Shown here: in pieces, positions 3,967-33,936 of the stretch | Layout: each line of letters starts with the position of its first letter | Position numbering within the stretch: position 1 is the stretch's first letter | Virus record (IMG/VR): IMGVR_UViG_3300028809_000026 | Coordinates: 1 to 45,718 of that record | Reading direction: 5' to 3' (one strand) | Origin: a virus | Length of the DNA stretch: 45,718 nt | The notes under the pieces: model-generated | Database searches by the model: none | Told to the model about the DNA's origin: nothing | The model's input: the letters and a program-made list of their open reading frames with translations, nothing else | Position numbers and translations under genes: made by a program

Positions 3967-3972
3967 TCATCA

Positions 3973-4338
3973 CTAGACCTTGAACGCGGCATTCGTCGCG
4001 GCGTAGATGACAGTGAAGGTCACCACGTCGGCCGCCGCCGCCTGCACCCTGATCTTGCGCACGCCGTCCTTGCCACGAAGCCGGATAGGGGCCGGGAGGA
4101 TGTCATGCACGCTGCTGGTCGTCGCGACGGAGCCGGTGTAGATCAGGTAATCCGTCGAGGCCACGGTGTACCAGATGCTCGCAAGGCGGGCGCTGGCGTC
4201 TTGGTTGGCAACGATCAGGCCGATGATCAAGACTTCCTGCTTTTCGTCAAACTCGACGAGGTCCGTCACGCTCGTGCCTGTCGGGCGAAGCGATATAGGC
4301 TCTTCAACCGTACCCCCGACAGCGTAGAAGACGCTCAC
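3973..4338 (-). CDS. Small beta-rich late protein, probably virion
   Basis: This 121-residue product starts MSVFYAVGGTVEEPISL and is almost entirely predicted beta strand (VLIIGLIVANQ, SIWYTVAST, VTFTVIYAAT). It has no signal peptide and no recognised motif. Its start overlaps the stop of the upstream gp10-like gene, and its stop is 7 nt before the PARP-like gene. A beta-sandwich accessory or hub-associated protein would fit the position. I do not recognise the family. Confidence 0.6.
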   Translation of the reverse strand: MSVFYAVGGTVEEPISLRPTGTSVTDLVEFDEKQEVLIIGLIVANQDASARLASIWYTVASTDYLIYTGSVATTSSVHDILPAPIRLRGKDGVRKIRVQAAAADVVTFTVIYAATNAAFKV

Positions 4339-5798
4339 CGCTGGCCGCCCGCTTTGACGCCGCCTTCAGGGAAATCAACGCCCGACACATGCTGCCAGAC
4401 CTCGCCCTCTCCGATTTCCGCACGGAAGGCATGGAACAAGGACTCGCTGCGAAATGGCACTATCCCGGTGTAGGAGTTCGGCTGATTCGTCGCGCCGTCC
4501 GTCCGCGCGCCTCCGTGCCAATCCGACGTGATGGCGCGGAGATTGTACGTAGCAGGCACATCCCCCACCAGACGCGCACCACTCACGAAGGACCGCCGCC
4601 CAGACACGAGTTGCATGTCGGCTGTTTCCAACGTCGCGGCCATCGCCCCACCGGCAAAGAAACACATGCGGTATTCGTCATCGAACACGGCGAGCGAGCG
4701 AATGCCGCCGGTCCAGAGCACGCTATCGAAGGGGATCGGAATTTCGTCTATCGAGTCGTAGAACGCATCGACGCCGTCAATCGTGACGCCCGCCGTCACC
4801 AGCGACGCCATGTTCGTAAAGACGGCCGTGCCGTAGCACCAACGGTCCAGCGGCCAACAATAGCCGAGCAGGAACTTTTCGTCCCCCGGCATCGGCGATT
4901 GCCACCAGACGATCTTGTTCAACGGGTCGACCATGGCCTTGACCTGGCCGACGGCCTCCTGGTCAATCATGCCGCGATACCAGCGGTCCACCCGTTCGAG
5001 GCCGATCGCGCGCCCTTCGACGTTGGCGAAAAACCCGTCATGCGAGAGATAGACGAACTGCCCAGGCCCGGTCTGTGCGATCGAGAGCGGCGCCGCGACC
5101 CCGCGATCTGAATTGAGCACGTCGGTACGGAACGCCACATCGCCCGGCAGCATGGTCATGGAACGTATCTTGGTGCGCTGGAAGATGACCGCGCCGCCCT
5201 GCGCCCCTACGCCGCCGACAATCTCCTCGCCGTCCGGGAAGTCCTGAAAATCGCAGCCCCGGCGCCCCGGCGTCCAGAAGGTTGCATCCCCGATGCCGGA
5301 TGTCATGACGCGGTTGGGCGCGTCATCAAGGTGCGCTATCACCAACTGCGAACCCGCGAGCCACGCATAGCGCGACTTCGGCGGGGAGCCGGTCTGGTCC
5401 GCGAACTCGGTGCCGATGTCGATGTCGATGACCTGCATCTCCGTGCCGAGATTGCCGGCAAGCAGGTTCGTCCCGAAGACCACGAACCACCACTGGTCGC
5501 CATCGGGAACCGCATAGGGGTCGCCTGTCCTCGATACGTCATCCCACCCGAAGTCGGATGCGTCGAATTCATACAACGCCGTGGCCGTGCCGGCGAAGAT
5601 ACGATATCCGCCCGTCGTGGTCCTGATGTAGAACGCGCCCGTGCAGGCTGCAGGCAATGCATCGGAAAAGGGGATGGTCTGTGGCAACGGGCCCCAGCCG
5701 TCCGCCACGGGGATGCAATTAACCGCGTTGGTCGTCACGCCGTTGGCATAAATCAGCCGATCGGGCTCAAAGTTTCCGAACGGGATCAAGGCGTGCAA
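4335..5798 (-). CDS. gp10-like tail hub / packaged-DNA stabilisation protein
   Basis: The 487-residue protein starts MHALIPFGNFEPDRLIYANG. It consists of repeated beta-blade-like segments with aromatic and Asp/Gly turns (for example YRIFAGTATALYEFD and WWFVVFGTNLLAGNL). This layout and length fit the beta-propeller hub proteins that close the portal channel in P22-like phages (P22 gp10). It follows a gp4-like adaptor, with which it overlaps by 13 nt, as in other short-tailed phages. The expected role is binding below the adaptor ring and keeping DNA in the head. The assignment rests on length, beta-rich pattern and order rather than a motif. Confidence 0.7.
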   Translation of the reverse strand: MHALIPFGNFEPDRLIYANGVTTNAVNCIPVADGWGPLPQTIPFSDALPAACTGAFYIRTTTGGYRIFAGTATALYEFDASDFGWDDVSRTGDPYAVPDGDQWWFVVFGTNLLAGNLGTEMQVIDIDIGTEFADQTGSPPKSRYAWLAGSQLVIAHLDDAPNRVMTSGIGDATFWTPGRRGCDFQDFPDGEEIVGGVGAQGGAVIFQRTKIRSMTMLPGDVAFRTDVLNSDRGVAAPLSIAQTGPGQFVYLSHDGFFANVEGRAIGLERVDRWYRGMIDQEAVGQVKAMVDPLNKIVWWQSPMPGDEKFLLGYCWPLDRWCYGTAVFTNMASLVTAGVTIDGVDAFYDSIDEIPIPFDSVLWTGGIRSLAVFDDEYRMCFFAGGAMAATLETADMQLVSGRRSFVSGARLVGDVPATYNLRAITSDWHGGARTDGATNQPNSYTGIVPFRSESLFHAFRAEIGEGEVWQHVSGVDFPEGGVKAGGQR

Positions 5799-8629: not shown

Positions 8630-9649
8630 TTATCCTTTTGATGCGAGGTAGGCGGCCACAGCGTCGTCGTGGCTGCCTGTTTTTCGGAGACGGGTGATCG
8701 CATCGCTTGCGCGCTGGGCCTTGGCCACGTCAGGGGAGAACCGCTTGCCGCCCTTGGTGATGGGCGGGCGTTCCTTGACCTGGCTGACGGTCTTGGGCTT
8801 GTTGGCCTGCAGACGGTCCCACTTGGCCGCTTTCGCGAGTACCAAGGCCATACGGTGGTCGAAAGGCACCTGTTCCGCGATCTCCTGCAACGAGAAGCCT
8901 GCGGCCTGTCCGGCGGACTTGATGTCCTCGGCGAAGGATTTCAGCTTCGTTTCGTCCTTGAGATCGGGGCGGGCCTCGCGTAGCCGCTCCATTTCAGCAT
9001 TCGCCCTCTCCTGCCGCTGCTTCTGGGTTTCCGCCGAAGCCTGTTGCTTCGACATGCCCATCTGTTCGCGGAGGTAAGTGAGGTGCTTCGAATACTGGTC
9101 GTGATGCTCCTTGGCGTTCAGGTAGCCGATCGGGTCGACCTGGAGCATGCCGGGGTCTGGGGGCGGTGGCGTGATTGATTCAAGCAGACGGGCCATGTAT
9201 TCCCGCTGCTCGTCCACCTGTCGCTTCGATGCTTCAAAGGCAGCAGATTGTTCCGCAAAGGCACGCTTTTCCTCTGCGACAGCCATTGTCTTCTGCCGAT
9301 AATCCCGGTCGCGGAGGTTGCCTGCGACGAGGTCGGCGACGGTTGACACGGTGCCATCGGGAAGCCGCACCTTGCCATTGCTGGCAACGAACCGCCCCTG
9401 ATCGCTTCCGGGTTCCTCTTCGTCCTCGTCTTCGGCCTGACCTTCCTCGTCAGGGTCGCCGGTCTCTTCGCTCACATCCTCGTCGGATGCCTGCAATTCG
9501 TCTTCGGCTTGTTCGCTCTGCTCGTCTTCCGGGTCCGGGTTGGCCTGTGCGGCTCCATTCGCGGTCGATTTTGCAAAGGCGGCGGCTGCCTGGTCGATTG
9601 ACATAGACAGCCCTTCGCCACCGTTGCCGGTGTCGTCGTCGTCTTCCAT
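8630..9649 (-). CDS. Capsid scaffolding protein
   Basis: This 339-residue protein has an extremely acidic N-terminal third (dense Asp/Glu runs at about 38-85). A short beta segment (VASNGKVRLPDGTVSTVADL) and a long charged coiled coil with many Gln, Glu, Arg and Ala (about 120-240) follow. The C-terminus is basic, with KGGKRFSPDVAKAQRASDA. Acidic start, coiled coil and basic capsid-binding tail, located between the connector-side genes and the capsid gene, are the hallmarks of internal scaffolds. No protease gene is visible nearby, so the scaffold probably exits intact. ATG 9649 is used. Confidence 0.82.
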   Translation of the reverse strand: MEDDDDTGNGGEGLSMSIDQAAAAFAKSTANGAAQANPDPEDEQSEQAEDELQASDEDVSEETGDPDEEGQAEDEDEEEPGSDQGRFVASNGKVRLPDGTVSTVADLVAGNLRDRDYRQKTMAVAEEKRAFAEQSAAFEASKRQVDEQREYMARLLESITPPPPDPGMLQVDPIGYLNAKEHHDQYSKHLTYLREQMGMSKQQASAETQKQRQERANAEMERLREARPDLKDETKLKSFAEDIKSAGQAAGFSLQEIAEQVPFDHRMALVLAKAAKWDRLQANKPKTVSQVKERPPITKGGKRFSPDVAKAQRASDAITRLRKTGSHDDAVAAYLASKG

Positions 9650-9707
9650 GGTTCGTCCTGGGATGCGCCAGTTCCGCTATGGGTTGACTGGCTGGGGAGC
9701 TAGAGGA

Positions 9708-9944
9708 TCACACGATCCCCGGTTTCCGCTTCGGCTCTCCGGCGCGTATGTACGCCTCCAGATGGCCGCGCAGATCGTCCACGACCCTGACTCTCGCCTG
9801 ATGGTCGCGAATGGCTTCCGTGTCCGTTGCCGGCGTTCTCACCAGCCCTTCAAGGGCAAGGGAGCGGATGGCGTCGAGCGCCTTCTGAAACGCCTCGTTC
9901 TGCCTGATGTTCTGCGCCTCGTGGGCAAGCTGGGCGTCGGTCAT
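9708..9944 (-). CDS. Small helical protein between portal and scaffold
   Basis: This 78-residue, almost fully alpha-helical protein starts MTDAQLAHEAQNIRQNEAF. It has a heptad-like spacing of Leu and Ala and ends in a basic GEPKRKPGIV tail. ATG 9944 overlaps the upstream stop (ATGA), which decides the start. I do not recognise the family. The position suggests a minor head or portal-associated factor. Confidence 0.65.
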   Translation of the reverse strand: MTDAQLAHEAQNIRQNEAFQKALDAIRSLALEGLVRTPATDTEAIRDHQARVRVVDDLRGHLEAYIRAGEPKRKPGIV

Positions 9945-10474
9945 GCGAAGAAATACATCGTGCCGGAGTTCGTATCGAGCAGTTCGGTTGACCCGCCGGC
10001 CATCGCCTTCTTGATCAGGTCGGCCGTCACGTAATCCCCGGCGGCTTTCGCCTTCAGCCGGTCGTTCACGATCTCCCCCCAAGTGCCTTCAATCGGCGTA
10101 CCGTCATACGGAACGAACCCGCCGCTCTGGTCTTCGTATACACGGCCCTCAAATGCCGCGAGAAAGACCGCTTCGCGCCGTTTGGTCGCGAAATGTCGGT
10201 CCCACATGATGCGATCGTCGATGACGCATTCTCGCGCCACGGACTGTCGCATGCGATAGGTGCGGCCATGCGGCGCGTTCAGTGCTTCCCGCTGTGCCGG
10301 CGCCAGATGTGGGTGGGACGGTTCAGTCGCCGGCTGGTAAAGCGGATCGTCGCCGACGTGGGCAATATCCGTCATCACCCAATGGCCGTTGTCGAAGCAG
10401 CGTTGCGCTACGTATTCGGTGCGCGGGACACGCTGTGGATAACGGTCGAACTTTTCACTGAGTTCGCGCGTCAC
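9941..10474 (-). CDS. Unrecognised late protein next to portal, 177 aa
   Basis: The product begins MTRELSEKFDRYPQRVPRTEY. It contains several Arg/His-rich stretches (MRQSVARECVIDDRIMWDRHFATKRR), a compact Gly-rich hairpin (EDQSGGFVPYDGTP) and a helical C-terminus. It overlaps the portal stop by 4 nt and the next gene by 4 nt. Because it lies between portal and scaffold it is probably a head-assembly accessory. No motif is recognised. Confidence 0.65.
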   Translation of the reverse strand: MTRELSEKFDRYPQRVPRTEYVAQRCFDNGHWVMTDIAHVGDDPLYQPATEPSHPHLAPAQREALNAPHGRTYRMRQSVARECVIDDRIMWDRHFATKRREAVFLAAFEGRVYEDQSGGFVPYDGTPIEGTWGEIVNDRLKAKAAGDYVTADLIKKAMAGGSTELLDTNSGTMYFFA

Positions 10475-28193: not shown

Positions 28194-28384
28194 ACCCCAC
28201 CGCCGACGACATGGCCCGCATCATAGCGGAGTTCCGTGAACAGCACCCGAGAAGCAGGGATCTGCGGCATCTTTGCGCAGTAGCGAGGGCGAAACGCACG
28301 CAGCAGCTTCGCGACGAGGTGCGGCTCTGCCACATGACGGCAGAACTTTGCCGTGCGTTGGATGAGGGAATTGACGATGCCTGA
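28190..28384 (+). CDS. Small helical protein, 64 aa
   Basis: ATG 28190 overlaps the previous stop (ATGA). The protein is helical and Arg/Ala-rich (MARIIAEFREQHPRSRDLRH, AVARAKRTQQLRDEV) with two Cys. It overlaps the next gene by 8 nt. No motif is recognised. Confidence 0.64.
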   Translation: MNPTADDMARIIAEFREQHPRSRDLRHLCAVARAKRTQQLRDEVRLCHMTAELCRALDEGIDDA

Positions 28385-29021
28385 ATTTCGCGACCTCAAA
28401 GGTCAGATCTTCAACCACTGGACGGTCCTTTTCGTCGGCAAGAGTAAGCCCCGGACACATTGGTGGAGCATGTGCGTTTGCGGGAAAGTCAAAGAGGTCG
28501 CTGGCATTCACTTAACGACCGGCGCTAGCAAGAGTTGCGGCTGCGTTCGCCCATCAGGGCGGGGGCACAAGAACTACACGCACGGAGGAACAAGCCTCTA
28601 CGGGGACGACCTACGCCTTGAATACAATTCCTGGGTTGCGATGCGAGGCCGGTGCAAGGACCCAAACAATAAGTCGTGGCACAACTACGGCGGGCGGGGG
28701 ATAACGGTTTGCCCCAGATGGGACGACCTCCACGCCTTTGTCTCTGACATGGGGCGACGCCCATCCAAGGCCCACACCATCGAAAGAATAGACGTGAACC
28801 GCGGCTACGAGCCCGGTAACTGCGTGTGGGCAACGCATGCCCAGCAGGCCAGAAATAGACGCACGAACGCATTAGTTGAGATCAATGGCCAGACGATGAC
28901 CATGACTGATGCACGTCGCCTGACAGGGCTGTGGCCACCAGCAATCCGCCGACGCATTAAAGCGGGGCTACCTTTCCCAGCGCGATGCGTCGAGGAAGAC
29001 ATCAAGGCTTTGGGAGAGTGA
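28377..29021 (+). CDS. HNH/AP2-type endonuclease-like protein
   Basis: ATG 28377 (MPEFRDLKGQIFNHWTVLFV) gives 214 residues. The middle has HGGTSLYGDDLRLEYNSWVA and then MRGRCKDPNNKSWHNYGGRG. Later come ICVPRW-like ITVCPRWDDLHAFVSDMG, TIERIDVNRGYEPGNCVWAT and AQQARNRRTN. This is the well-known phage pattern of an AP2-like DNA-binding segment and a His/Asn-containing nuclease-type fold. A short helix-turn-helix tail follows (QTMTMTDARRLTGL). It is probably a free-standing homing or DNA-binding enzyme. Confidence 0.82.
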   Translation: MPEFRDLKGQIFNHWTVLFVGKSKPRTHWWSMCVCGKVKEVAGIHLTTGASKSCGCVRPSGRGHKNYTHGGTSLYGDDLRLEYNSWVAMRGRCKDPNNKSWHNYGGRGITVCPRWDDLHAFVSDMGRRPSKAHTIERIDVNRGYEPGNCVWATHAQQARNRRTNALVEINGQTMTMTDARRLTGLWPPAIRRRIKAGLPFPARCVEEDIKALGE

Positions 29022-30272: not shown

Positions 30273-30675
30273 GGCTGCCGACGACCTCGACGACACGTCG
30301 CCAATCACCCTGGCTGAGGCGAGCGAACTCGTGCTGCGGGGGAAGGTGACCGTCAGCACCTTGCGCGCTGAAATCCGGCGGGGCAACCTTGCCGTGGAAC
30401 GGATCGGCAAAAACCTGTTCACCACGCCGGCCGACATTCGGGAGATGAGAAAGCGATGCCGCGTCCAGCCGAGCCGCCCCGACTCTATCTCAGAAAAGAC
30501 CGCGACCGCAACGTCTGGATCATCCGCGACCAAAACCGCGACCGACGAACTGGCTGTCCTGAAGACGACCGTGCAGGCGCTGAAAAACGGCTCGCTGAGT
30601 ACCTTGCGGAAAAGCACGCCGCGCGACCGGCAAAAGGCGGAAAGTCCAATACCGTTTCCATCGCCGAAGTCCTGA
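30265..30675 (+). CDS. Excisionase-like HTH protein
   Basis: The first 60 residues contain SPITLAEASELVLRGKVTVS and then TLRAEIRRGNLAVERIGKNL with FTTPADIREM. This is the AlpA/MerR-like winged helix-turn-helix of phage excisionases. The last 70 residues, after about 65, are Ser/Thr/Lys-rich and low complexity, and all of them overlap the integrase in another frame. The tail may be a by-product of the overlap. The protein would bind attP arms and direct excision by the integrase. Confidence 0.78.
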   Translation: MTRAADDLDDTSPITLAEASELVLRGKVTVSTLRAEIRRGNLAVERIGKNLFTTPADIREMRKRCRVQPSRPDSISEKTATATSGSSATKTATDELAVLKTTVQALKNGSLSTLRKSTPRDRQKAESPIPFPSPKS

Positions 30676-31499
30676 GGGTGTACGCGATGGAACACGCCCC
30701 GACAACCGCGTCCCCGCATCTGATAGCGGAACACATGGAAGGGCTCATCCCCTTTTGGGGAAGCCGCAAGGTGTCGGACATCAAGGGGAGGTCGTGCCGC
30801 GAGTTCGCCGCGACGAAGAAGCAATCAATGGCCCGCCGGCAGCTTGAAACGCTGCGCGCTGCGGTCAACTACTTTCACAAGGAATATGGACTGGACCCCG
30901 TCCCGGCCTTCACGATGCCGCAAAAGCATCGAGCGCGGGAAAGGTGGCTGACGAGGGACGAGGTCGCCCGCCTGCTGTGGAGCGCCCGCAGGACGCCGCA
31001 TCTCGCGCGCTTCATCCTGATCGGCATCTACACCGGGACGAGGTCGGGAGCGATCCTTGGCCTGTCCTGGCTGACGAACGTCAACGCCGGCTTCGTGGAT
31101 CTGGACGCAGGTGTCATGTACAGGGCCGGGAGCAGCCAGAGGCAGACGAGGAAGCGCCAGCCGCCCGTTGCCATCCCCGACCGCCTGCTGGCCCATATGA
31201 GGCGCTGGAAGGCCAAGGACGGGAACCTGCGCCATGTCGTGAACTGGAACGGCTCGTCGGTGCAGTCGGTGAAGAAGGCGTTCCGCTCAGCGCGCTCAAG
31301 CGCAGGGCTTGGACCGGACGTGATACCGCATTGCCTGAGGCATACGGCGGCAACGTGGCTGATGCAGGCAGGCGTTGAAGTGTGGCAGGCGGCCGGCTTC
31401 CTCGGCATGACTGCGGAAATGGTGGAGCGCGTGTACGGCCACCATTCGGCCGGATATCAGAAGCAGGCGGCGGATGCCGTGACGAAAAGGAGAGCGTGA
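30456..31499 (+). CDS. int: Tyrosine recombinase (phage integrase)
   Basis: This 347-residue protein starts MPRPAEPPRLYLRKDRDRNV, the common N-terminus of Rhizobiales phage integrases. Catalytic residues are Arg196 (GTRSGA), Lys near 233, His292-Arg295 (PHCLRHT), His329/330 and Tyr334 (GHHSAGY). The SAM-like core-binding domain is at about 68-150. It recombines attP at 32654-32703 with a tRNA-Pro gene. The start lies 220 nt inside the excisionase-like gene. It is followed 3 nt later by the zinc-finger gene, so the three genes probably form one unit. Confidence 0.95.
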   Translation: MPRPAEPPRLYLRKDRDRNVWIIRDQNRDRRTGCPEDDRAGAEKRLAEYLAEKHAARPAKGGKSNTVSIAEVLRVYAMEHAPTTASPHLIAEHMEGLIPFWGSRKVSDIKGRSCREFAATKKQSMARRQLETLRAAVNYFHKEYGLDPVPAFTMPQKHRARERWLTRDEVARLLWSARRTPHLARFILIGIYTGTRSGAILGLSWLTNVNAGFVDLDAGVMYRAGSSQRQTRKRQPPVAIPDRLLAHMRRWKAKDGNLRHVVNWNGSSVQSVKKAFRSARSSAGLGPDVIPHCLRHTAATWLMQAGVEVWQAAGFLGMTAEMVERVYGHHSAGYQKQAADAVTKRRA

Positions 31500-31502
31500 G
31501 CC

Positions 31503-32642
31503 TTGACCGATGGCTATCTGAAATGCGCCCACTGTGCTGTTGAGTTCCTTGGAACCGCCAGCCAGATCAAGCACCACAAATACGAGGGGCGGATCGCGTA
31601 CTGCTCTGACATTTGCCGCAAGACAGCAGTGAGCAATAAGCTACGCACGCCGATGCCGACGCACGGGCCTTGCCCGACATGCGGCAGCATGTTCGAGTCG
31701 CGGACAAGCAAAATCTATTGCTCGCAAAAATGCTATGCGGCTTCTCCCGCGTTTGCCGCGATGATTGAAGCCAACATGATGAAGGCGGCCAAAAGTGCCG
31801 CAAAAAACCTTGAAGAGTTCAGGGAACTAAACACCATCAACTGCATGGAATGCGGCGAGCCGTTTTACGCGCCGCCCGCAAAGCAAAAGAAATTCTGCGG
31901 TCCTTTGTGCTATCGCGGCTATATGGCCAAGCGGTTCGACAGATGGGTAGCATCACCCGAACGGATCGCGCTCCCGCAGAACTTCGATGAATTTCTTACC
32001 CAGAACGAATTGCCTTGTCTGGTCGAGGGGTGCGGGTGGGTCGGTCGACATCTCAGCCAGCATATGAATATGGCCCACGGAGTACCGGCACATGAGTTCA
32101 AGCGGGCGGCGGGATTTAACCTCGGGACCGGCGTCGTCTCTGCCGACCTCTCGGCGGAAATGTCACTGCGCCCACAGGTGGGTGTTGCGCTTGCGGGCAT
32201 CGAGCGGTCTAAGCCGACCAACCCACAGACGAGACGATACGTATCCCTTGAGGCTCGCGAACACCAGCGAAAGGCACGCCTTATATGTTACGGCGGCCCC
32301 ACCAGAGATTGCAAAGGTTGCGGCAACCCATTCCAACAAAGCACACCATACGGGAGGTCGCAGTATTGTTCCACGTCGTGCCGGGACAAGGATTACTCGG
32401 CGAGGAATTCGGAAAGGCGGTTCCCGATGGATTGCGCCAACTGCAAGTCCGACTTCCTGGGAACTTATTACCAGAGCCTCGGCTTGGCAAAGGGGCGCCC
32501 CGTCGCGTGCTCGATTAAATGCAGGAACGCCATAGTGGGCGGATACAAGCATCGGCGCATTAAATGCGCACAGCTTCAGCAGCACGACGAAGCCACCAAC
32601 GTGAACGAAACAGCGGTTAAAGCGGGAACGAACAGTGACTGA
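31503..32642 (+). CDS. Multi-zinc-finger protein with Ros/MucR-like domain, beside attP
   Basis: The TTG start at 31503 has GGAG 10 nt upstream; the product is 379 residues. It contains five treble-clef (FCS-like) zinc units, each with C-x2-C and (Y/F)CSxxC: C8/11 with C34/38; C57/60 with C73/77; C114/117 with C132/136; C270/273 with C289/293; and C311/314 with C336/340. In the centre is PCLVEGCGWVGRHLSQHMNM-AHGVPAHEF (about 171-199). This resembles the C2H2 Ros/MucR finger of alphaproteobacterial regulators (Cys172, Cys177, His187, His192). No nuclease or enzyme motif was seen. It lies between int and attP, so it may be a cargo regulator or a DNA-binding attachment factor. The gene ends 12 nt before attP. 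Confidence 0.7.
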   Translation: MTDGYLKCAHCAVEFLGTASQIKHHKYEGRIAYCSDICRKTAVSNKLRTPMPTHGPCPTCGSMFESRTSKIYCSQKCYAASPAFAAMIEANMMKAAKSAAKNLEEFRELNTINCMECGEPFYAPPAKQKKFCGPLCYRGYMAKRFDRWVASPERIALPQNFDEFLTQNELPCLVEGCGWVGRHLSQHMNMAHGVPAHEFKRAAGFNLGTGVVSADLSAEMSLRPQVGVALAGIERSKPTNPQTRRYVSLEAREHQRKARLICYGGPTRDCKGCGNPFQQSTPYGRSQYCSTSCRDKDYSARNSERRFPMDCANCKSDFLGTYYQSLGLAKGRPVACSIKCRNAIVGGYKHRRIKCAQLQQHDEATNVNETAVKAGTNSD

Positions 32643-32757
32643 ACGGGCTGTCTCATCGTTCGGGACGATGGGGTCGCAGGTTCAAATCCTGCCACTCCGA
32701 CCAGAATATCAAACACTTAGCAAATCGGCTCTTTCGATGCGCACATCAATGCGCACA
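32564..32757. repeat. Three ATGCGCACA repeats around the attP core
   Basis: The exact 9-mer ATGCGCACA occurs at 32564-32572, 32737-32745 and 32749-32757, on both sides of the tRNA-derived core. Two copies are 12 bp apart, and one lies inside the zinc-finger gene. The spacing suggests integrase arm-type binding sites. Confidence 0.6.
32654..32703 (+). other. attP: attP core: 3' half of tRNA-Pro(CGG)
   Basis: The segment runs from the anticodon arm to the 3' CCA of a tRNA. It has anticodon stem CATCG/CGATG with loop TTCGGGA (anticodon CGG), T-stem GCAGG/CCTGC with loop TTCAAAT, acceptor strand CACTCCG, discriminator A and CCA. The 5' half is absent, so it is not a gene. This is the usual identity block between phage attP and the host tRNA. 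Both flanks are phage DNA, so the phage is unintegrated. The start is uncertain by a few bases. Confidence 0.85.
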
Positions 32758-32812
32758 ACAACCCCGAAATTCCGGTTAATTTTGCGCCAGCCCCCTTTAA
32801 AGGAGCCGAGTG

Positions 32813-33103
32813 ATGTCTGAGGTTGTGGAGCGGGTCGCAAGGGCGATTTACGACGCCGCAGACCCTACCAGTGGCGATTGTGTCGCAGAGGCACTGATGC
32901 ACTCGCCTTTCGTCGGAGACGGCGGCAGAGACGCCCTTGAAGACGTGATGGCTATTTGCCGATCTGCCGCCCGTGCCGCCATACTGGCGATGCAGGAGCC
33001 GACAGAGGCGATGGTGATGGCCGGCGAGGATGCTGCGCCCCCATTCGGTGACCATAATCCGCATGCCGCTTGGACCGCCATGGTAGCCGAAGCGCTCCGC
33101 TGA
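32813..33103 (+). CDS. Small phage protein at the attP end, 96 aa
   Basis: ATG 32813 has AAGGAG 8 nt upstream. The product MSEVVERVARAIYDAADPTS has an Ala-rich helix, and the phrase RAAILAMQEPTEAMVMAG, near 60-80, is a recurring signature of small phage proteins (AAIAAMREPTxAM). Function is unknown. It is the first gene after attP, so it would sit at a prophage end. Confidence 0.78.
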   Translation: MSEVVERVARAIYDAADPTSGDCVAEALMHSPFVGDGGRDALEDVMAICRSAARAAILAMQEPTEAMVMAGEDAAPPFGDHNPHAAWTAMVAEALR

Positions 33104-33195
33104 TGCGCCTCCCCCTCTCCTTCTACTGGACCATTGCGGCTGCTGGAGCTGTTGGTGTGGTGTTCTTCAAACTGATAGAATGGATGATGCAATGA
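33103..33195 (+). CDS. Small membrane peptide, 30 aa
   Basis: ATG 33103 shares a base with the previous stop (TGATG), and its own end overlaps the next ATG (ATGA). The product MRLPLSFYWTIAAAGAVGVV then FFKLIEWMMQ is one hydrophobic helix. It is too short for usual gene callers. The coupling on both sides supports translation. Confidence 0.62.
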   Translation: MRLPLSFYWTIAAAGAVGVVFFKLIEWMMQ

Positions 33196-33383
33196 AGCTT
33201 GATGAGGACGACGGATTTTGGAGCTGCGCGAGCCTTGCCGAATGGCTGGAAAGGAATGTCCCGCCCGGCTCGGTCATAAGCCCGAATCACGGGATCACCG
33301 TTGAAATGCTGATCAAGCGGCTGAACGATATCGCCGACGAAGAATGGTCTGCCGGGATCGACGCGATGGGCGAGGATGCGTGA
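33192..33383 (+). CDS. Small protein, 63 aa
   Basis: ATG 33192 (MKLDEDDGFWSCASLAEWLE) overlaps the preceding stop as ATGA. The protein is acidic with one Cys and a C-terminal helix (MLIKRLNDIADEEW). It is the last plus-strand gene before the RNA-like element and the opposing lysis genes. No family is recognised. Confidence 0.66.
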   Translation: MKLDEDDGFWSCASLAEWLERNVPPGSVISPNHGITVEMLIKRLNDIADEEWSAGIDAMGEDA

Positions 33384-33423
33384 GCCTCTAACAATCTCTA
33401 TCGCCCTATAGCGGGGATGTGGT

Positions 33424-33578
33424 ATAGATGGGGAGAGGCGGGACGAAAGCCCTAGTCGGGAGACATGCCCGGCGTAAATGAGCGCCCGACCAGTAGCGGC
33501 GGATCAGTGTGCCGTCGCGACACCCAGGGAGGTAAGCTGGTTCAAGTCCAGCGGCCCGTCTCTACTTCCCCCTTCTAT
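33424..33578 (+). ncRNA. Possible structured RNA with tRNA-like T-arm
   Basis: A closing helix pairs 33424-33433 with 33569-33578 (one mismatch) and 33434-33442 with 33555-33563 (9 pairs, one G-U). There is a 5-nt bulge at 33564-33568. Next to it 33536-33540 GCTGG and 33548-33552 CCAGC enclose TTCAAGT, a canonical tRNA T-arm. Inside, 33452-33460 pairs with 33485-33493 (8 of 9). The same helix overlaps the 3' end of the opposing gene, so a bidirectional terminator or a degenerate tRNA are alternatives. No standard cloverleaf could be drawn. Confidence 0.45.
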
Positions 33579-33936
33579 CAAACTGCTGCTGCCGTTCTCT
33601 CTCTTCCACAGTAGCACGGAGGGTGGAGAGTTCCCGCATCATTTCCGTCTGGACGGACAGCATGCGGTCGAGTTTGGCGGTGCTCTCGCGCTGGAATTCC
33701 TCGCGGTCCTGCCTGCCCCGTTCGATGGTGGTCTCGACGACCTTGATGCGCTCTTTCGCGAGCGGCATTTCAGCCTGGAGGGAATCCACATCGGAGCGGA
33801 GGCCGGTGAAGCGTTCCTCTACCCATGCCTTGCCAAAGTACACGACAGCCGCCAGCAGGACTGGCGTCAGCAGCATGGACAGGCGCGATAGCACCTGAAG
33901 GGTGGCGCTCTCCGCGAGCTTGTCTGCATCGGGCAT
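33562..33936 (-). CDS. Single-TM coiled-coil protein, possible inner-membrane spanin
   Basis: The 124-residue protein starts MPDADKLAESATLQVLSRLS and has one membrane helix (about 19-37, LSMLLTPVLLAAVVYFGKAW). A long charged coiled coil extends to the end with RQDREEFQRESTAKLDRML. This N-in anchor plus periplasmic coiled coil is the layout of Rz-type inner-membrane spanins. The lipoprotein two genes upstream would be a natural outer-membrane partner. It is the last gene of the late operon. No direct Rz homology is claimed. Confidence 0.66.
   Translation of the reverse strand: MPDADKLAESATLQVLSRLSMLLTPVLLAAVVYFGKAWVEERFTGLRSDVDSLQAEMPLAKERIKVVETTIERGRQDREEFQRESTAKLDRMLSVQTEMMRELSTLRATVEERERQQQFDRRGK

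Follow-up and report, generated by a model that had tools for sequence, protein, structure and literature searches.

A zinc-array gene between the integrase and the predicted attP of a phage defines an unnamed family with probable homing-endonuclease-like movement and no visible nuclease

What does a protein with six zinc sites do between the integrase and the attachment site of a phage? The question is raised by the viral record IMGVR_UViG_3300028809_000026, which was analyzed over its full length of 45,718 nucleotides, hereafter the window. An earlier note, made from the sequence alone, had described a protein of 379 residues that carries five FCS-like zinc units along with a finger of the Ros/MucR type, placed between int and attP and outside any named family, and had proposed that it could mimic MucR, bridge DNA at attP or serve in defence. 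The gene is a real open reading frame (ORF) on the forward strand, with a TTG start at 31503 and its stop at 32642, and it has the lowest GC content among the 37 ORFs of the window. Its start is located four bases past the stop codon of a tyrosine integrase gene (30456-31499, forward strand; phrog_1, E 7.9e-41; PF00589, E 1.1e-11), and AAGGAGAG is found ~10 nt 5' of it. The shared Shine-Dalgarno stretch and the lack of any promoter-like site in 30300-33700 suggest that transcription reaches the gene by read-through from int. Directly past its stop there is a tRNA remnant (32644-32700, Rfam), and the 48 bp at 32656-32703 (forward strand), corresponding to the 3' part of a tRNA-Pro(CGG) gene, represent the predicted attP core. 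The placement that the earlier note had given was therefore confirmed, with attP as a prediction.

Searches with the window protein as a single sequence retrieved no match from viral contigs or from phage records, and no convincing one from the PDB, whereas tblastn identified three near-identical copies on Pseudomonas plasmids at 43% identity. Alignments grown from these plasmid copies then retrieved 32 viral contigs, and only such alignment-based searches exposed the family. Scans of genome contigs were at first without a match and then yielded one Reyranella metagenome-assembled genome (MAG) contig among 84,980 species genomes; no further members were found in 385 Alphaproteobacteria. With 32 viral contigs, three plasmids and a single MAG contig, this appears to be essentially a family of phages and mobile elements. 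The window protein shares 34-51% identity with its relatives and had no firmly supported sister in a maximum-likelihood tree. The relatives are under purifying selection, with dN/dS values of 0.12-0.42 over nine close pairs. As the earlier note had anticipated, the protein belongs to no specific Pfam, NCBIfam or PADLOC family. The domain, ligand and invariance counts given below were taken over 24 family members; the relatives are mostly metagenomic fragments, and family counts are not independent since several contigs are near-duplicates.

The window protein contains 24 cysteines, which provide five C-x2-C-(n)-C-x3-C units and one C2H2 finger. In 20,000 shuffles of its 379 residues, these cysteines included, never more than two such units were obtained, as compared to the five of the real protein, which bears out the earlier count. 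Three units form the core (all features of the protein are encoded on the forward strand): Zn2 (residues 57-77; 31671-31733), with all four cysteines in 24/24 members, Zn3 (residues 114-136; 31842-31910), with four in 23/24, and Zn5 (residues 270-293; 32310-32381), with four in 22/24, one member being substituted and another truncated. The other two, Zn1 (residues 8-38; 31524-31616) and Zn6 (residues 311-340; 32433-32522), are optional, their four cysteines being present in 16 and 12 of the 24 members, respectively. Both belong to a terminal 'FLGT-x2-Q' subtype and are alike in the pattern F-x-G-T/S-x2-Q, and every one of the 24 members carries a full or near-full Zn1 or Zn6, either one or both. 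The earlier note had pointed to loss of the cysteine pairs in relatives, or to homologues with a known enzymatic domain, as signs against its description; the core ligands are kept, and no enzymatic domain was recognised in any relative.

The Ros/MucR-type finger with its tail helices spans residues 172-231 (32016-32195) and reads C172-x4-C177-x9-H187-x4-H192, with the ligands present in 24/24 members. PF05443 (ROS_MUCR) matched the window protein with an E of 0.003 and 18.0 bits, under the cut-off of 25.4, but 14 of the 24 members were matched, with a best E of 1.8e-6, and a Foldseek search retrieved the Ros87 structure 2jsp (TMt 0.47, E 1.3). This part of the earlier description thus stands. 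As in the Ros/MucR family, a C2H2 finger is followed by conserved tail helices; in contrast to that family, the finger has a C-x4-C spacing and lies in the middle of an array within a long protein. The match covers only profile positions 54-112 of 123, i.e., finger and tail, and zinc units flank it on both sides. MucR combines an N-terminal oligomerisation region with a C-terminal finger (PMC9779718), and this N-terminal region is missing in the window protein.

Conservation extends to two segments that bind no zinc. The first, residues 137-164 (31911-31994), has the consensus YRxYMAKRFDRWIAxPxxIALPQxYDEF, and nine of its residues are identical in 24/24 members (R138, R144, D146, R147, A150, P152, A156, Q159 and D162). 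The second is a helix at residues 248-261 (32244-32285; modelled as a helix at 249-261) with the pattern SLExxEHxxKAxxL, in which E250, E253, H254 and K257 do not vary among the 24 members.

An initial structure model had a mean pLDDT of 65 and was too poor to be read. An AlphaFold model based on 24 sequences reached a mean pLDDT of 75.9 and showed strand-strand-helix units (pLDDT ~82-96 for Zn1); it is good for each unit, whereas a pTM of 0.31 makes the arrangement between units unreliable. Foldseek related parts of this model to the FCS finger of human LMBL2 (2w0t, TMt 0.58) and to YacG (TMt 0.52), both with E >1. Single units thus resemble FCS/FLZ-type fingers and YacG in their strand-strand-helix C2C2 fold (2w0t, 4tma), but these fingers occur singly in unrelated proteins, and the matches are short and weak. 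Pfam zf-FCS matched 4/24 family members (best E 9e-5) and zf-FLZ 2/24. The top full-length PDB matches, CTCF and ZFP568, were rejected since they reflect bead-on-string geometry only (TM ~0.1), and matches of the window protein to Ecl1, Rtr1, MYND-like and RnfC models were set aside as generic cysteine-pattern hits.

The genomic positions of the gene vary largely among carriers. It was found before terL or terS (L041, L021, L012 and L013), between portal and head morphogenesis genes (L053), after the DNA polymerase gene (L043 and L044), before a helicase gene (L047), before lysis genes (L006 and L008) and, in the window, after int. Its presence is thus sporadic and lies beside essential genes of unrelated phages. 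The clearest comparison is provided by L044, in which the zinc ORF sits exactly between the stop of the DNA polymerase gene and the start of the next gene (the MKIHVEF gene), both flanks being intact. In three phages with polymerases 77-85% identical to that of L044 (L065, L068 and L061), the polymerase gene abuts the MKIHVEF gene at the junction TAATGAA. Comparison of these alleles demonstrates the precise insertion of a bare ORF at this one occupied/empty site; the DNA-level empty site comes from a single lineage, and the int-attP and portal comparisons span more distant phages. For L053, a search for an empty site returned only the L053 contig itself; in its distant relative, Bacillus phage Blastoid, the portal and head genes abut.

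The slot between int and attP tells a similar story. The identical tRNA-Pro core is found downstream of related integrases in L038, L039 and L040, which share 73%, 73% and 41% identity with the window integrase, respectively, and none of these three records contains a member of the zinc-array family anywhere. In L039 and L040 the slot lacks the zinc gene, and in L038 it is filled by a different, unrelated small gene (3970-4344, forward strand), preceded by GGAGAGCGTGA, a ribosome-binding stretch identical to that of the window. Because L038 holds a different gene there, the slot looks like a cargo position, in support of the accessory cargo slot suggested earlier, and the zinc gene is probably dispensable cargo, carried at the end of the prophage.

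Further data concern the exchange of the gene between phages. In L012 and L013 the zinc gene is 88% identical, whereas terL is 68% identical and the upstream regions are unrelated. Between L046 (1129-2145) and L047 (9962-10978), nucleotide identity rises from ~0.85 to 0.99 close to where the zinc gene begins. The high identity continues through the downstream helicase gene, placing a recombination boundary at the zinc gene. The GC content of the zinc gene was below the median of its neighbours in 23 of 27 loci, which are not all independent and in which amino-acid composition may contribute to the difference. At the level of sequence comparison, these data show that the zinc gene is exchanged as an isolated unit.

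The strongest profile match of the window protein was to PHROG 1271, 'HNH endonuclease' (E 9e-19), which also matched L022 and L023. The family search furthermore caught two multi-unit phage proteins, L019 (HNH, E 1e-13) and L020, that both end in HNH domains, and a fold comparison with BFVD gave 21 matches at E <= 0.001, of which 8 were annotated as HNH. As judged by these matches, the zinc units are akin to those arrayed in HNH homing endonucleases of phages, with which the family has tandem C-x2-C/C-x3-C units on linkers, module shuffling and scattered insertion beside essential phage genes at empty and occupied sites in common. L053 has swapped its N-terminal unit for one of another type, the best phage matches of which were mostly annotated as HNH endonuclease or hypothetical and were weak (E 0.05-0.7). 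In L051, the gene two places upstream of the zinc gene encodes a genuine HNH homing endonuclease that itself contains an FCS-like unit. Scattered bare-ORF insertions and zinc units in common with HNH homing endonucleases are the two strongest clues, and both had been overlooked in the earlier note.

The family differs from these endonucleases in that no HNH, GIY-YIG, LAGLIDADG or other nuclease model of Pfam matched any of the 24 members at E <= 0.1; the Ros/MucR-type finger and the conserved RFDRW...ExxEHxxK core are present instead. In the ShiLan element an HNH is hidden in another frame (PMC11855218), but this option was discarded for the window gene, in whose overlapping frames no nuclease domain was found. 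The term homing is therefore based on distribution and kinship, and not on an enzyme. A second known group, the T5orf172 homing endonucleases with CapR/DUF723-type fingers together with CapR (PMC10448857), has bead-on-string zinc modules and identical genomic habitats. The T5orf172 domain is absent from the zinc-array family, and the CapR zinc motif is CxxC...CxC. Nuclease-less relatives exist in this group and act as DNA binders; in Vibrio phage satellites, zinc fingers of homing endonucleases make up CapR, a repressor (PMC10448857), which acts on capsid genes.

Phage homing endonuclease genes have a comparable distribution and domain shuffling, and CapR provides a precedent for nuclease-less relatives (PMC10448857); we therefore favor, with a probability of about 0.58, a freestanding, phage-borne mobile gene with homing-endonuclease-like spread, the product of which would be a bead-on-string DNA-binding protein. 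This product would combine the three core FCS-like zinc units and the Ros/MucR-type finger with one or two exchangeable terminal units, and its array would bind specific double-stranded DNA. In the most speculative step, the gene would spread because its product cuts the DNA of the empty site, using an unrecognised active site for which the invariant R144, D146, R147, D162, E250, E253, H254 and K257 are candidate residues. If there is no cleavage, the protein may be a nuclease-less homing relative, a DNA-binding repressor like CapR. Ordinary recombination of modules would give a similar picture, and this, together with the zero nuclease matches in 24 members, argues against the homing-like reading. 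The stronger proposal of a new class of homing endonuclease, with a site around RFDRW / LPQxYD / ExxEHxxK in a fold other than the known nuclease folds and framed by zinc units and the Ros-type finger, is tentative, and we consider it rather unlikely.

A possible but doubtful alternative holds that the gene is cargo encoding a site-specific transcriptional repressor or anti-competitor of the CapR kind, descended from the DNA-binding modules of homing endonucleases after loss of the nuclease. The missing nuclease domain, the zinc-only architecture, the CapR precedent, the purifying selection and the presence of the gene on integrative elements of Pseudomonas plasmids are all consistent with this idea. 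However, frequent bare-ORF insertion beside essential genes calls for some means of mobility, which a repressor would not provide, and invariant acidic, histidine and lysine residues on one helix would be unusual in a pure DNA binder. On the Pseudomonas plasmid element (L002), the zinc gene overlaps the next gene (8975-10201, forward strand), which encodes a 408-residue protein with repeated HTH/Myb-like units, another bead-on-string DNA-binding design.

A phage transcription regulator that switches early to late expression was our initial favorite and now appears improbable. The zinc gene closes the early operon in L006, L008 and L021 and lies late in that of the window, but the idea was dropped since the positions are scattered, including those at the portal/head genes, after the DNA polymerase gene and before the helicase gene, and close relatives of the carriers do without the gene. 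Even less credit can be given to a role in host takeover, in which host genes would be rewired through mimicry of MucR/Ros, as the earlier note had suggested: the likeness is confined to finger and tail, without the oligomerisation region of MucR, the array is common to HNH proteins, and the family occurs in diverse phages and in Pseudomonas plasmids, outside the Alphaproteobacteria. The tRNA core of the window phage was found in 1 of 190 sampled Alphaproteobacteria and did not reveal a host. The weakest proposal, a cofactor of integration or excision that bends or bridges DNA at attP, draws on the position of the window gene and on the integrase ~2 kb from the zinc gene on the Pseudomonas plasmid element, but is very unlikely because three phages with related integrases and the identical core lack the gene and no integrase was found in nine records of relatives, which are fragments. 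A role in defence likewise gained no ground, since PADLOC gave no match for the window protein, and the isolated matches that it gave for other members were weak (E 0.01-0.1) and not convincing.

Several other features of the window were recorded. An HNH endonuclease gene (28353-29021, forward strand; phrog_374, E 6e-57) is located ~2.5 kb upstream of the zinc-array gene and shares an early operon with Rad52-like and NinB-like recombination genes. A tRNA-like element at 33418-33560 (forward strand) contains GCTGGTTCAAGTCCAGC, which resembles a T-arm, and its predicted fold (z-score -1.0) has an outer stem like that of an acceptor; neither ARAGORN nor Rfam matched this segment. The portal/scaffold/head set of the phage falls into PHROGs 1216, 3927 and 3287, and no near relative of the first 25 kb of the window was found among 50,697 phage records.

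Taken together, the zinc-array gene defines a compact and unnamed family of phage genes, which moves in a homing-endonuclease-like manner and has no visible nuclease. It also shows that a prokaryotic finger of the Ros/MucR type can be part of a multi-zinc array and is not confined to host regulators. If the protein cuts DNA, it would represent a new class of nucleases, in which recognition is modular and based on zinc. Otherwise, the family would be a clear example of how selfish DNA-binding modules are spread or domesticated without their enzyme, in parallel to CapR. In resolving its function, many phage genes now termed 'hypothetical' could be given a name.
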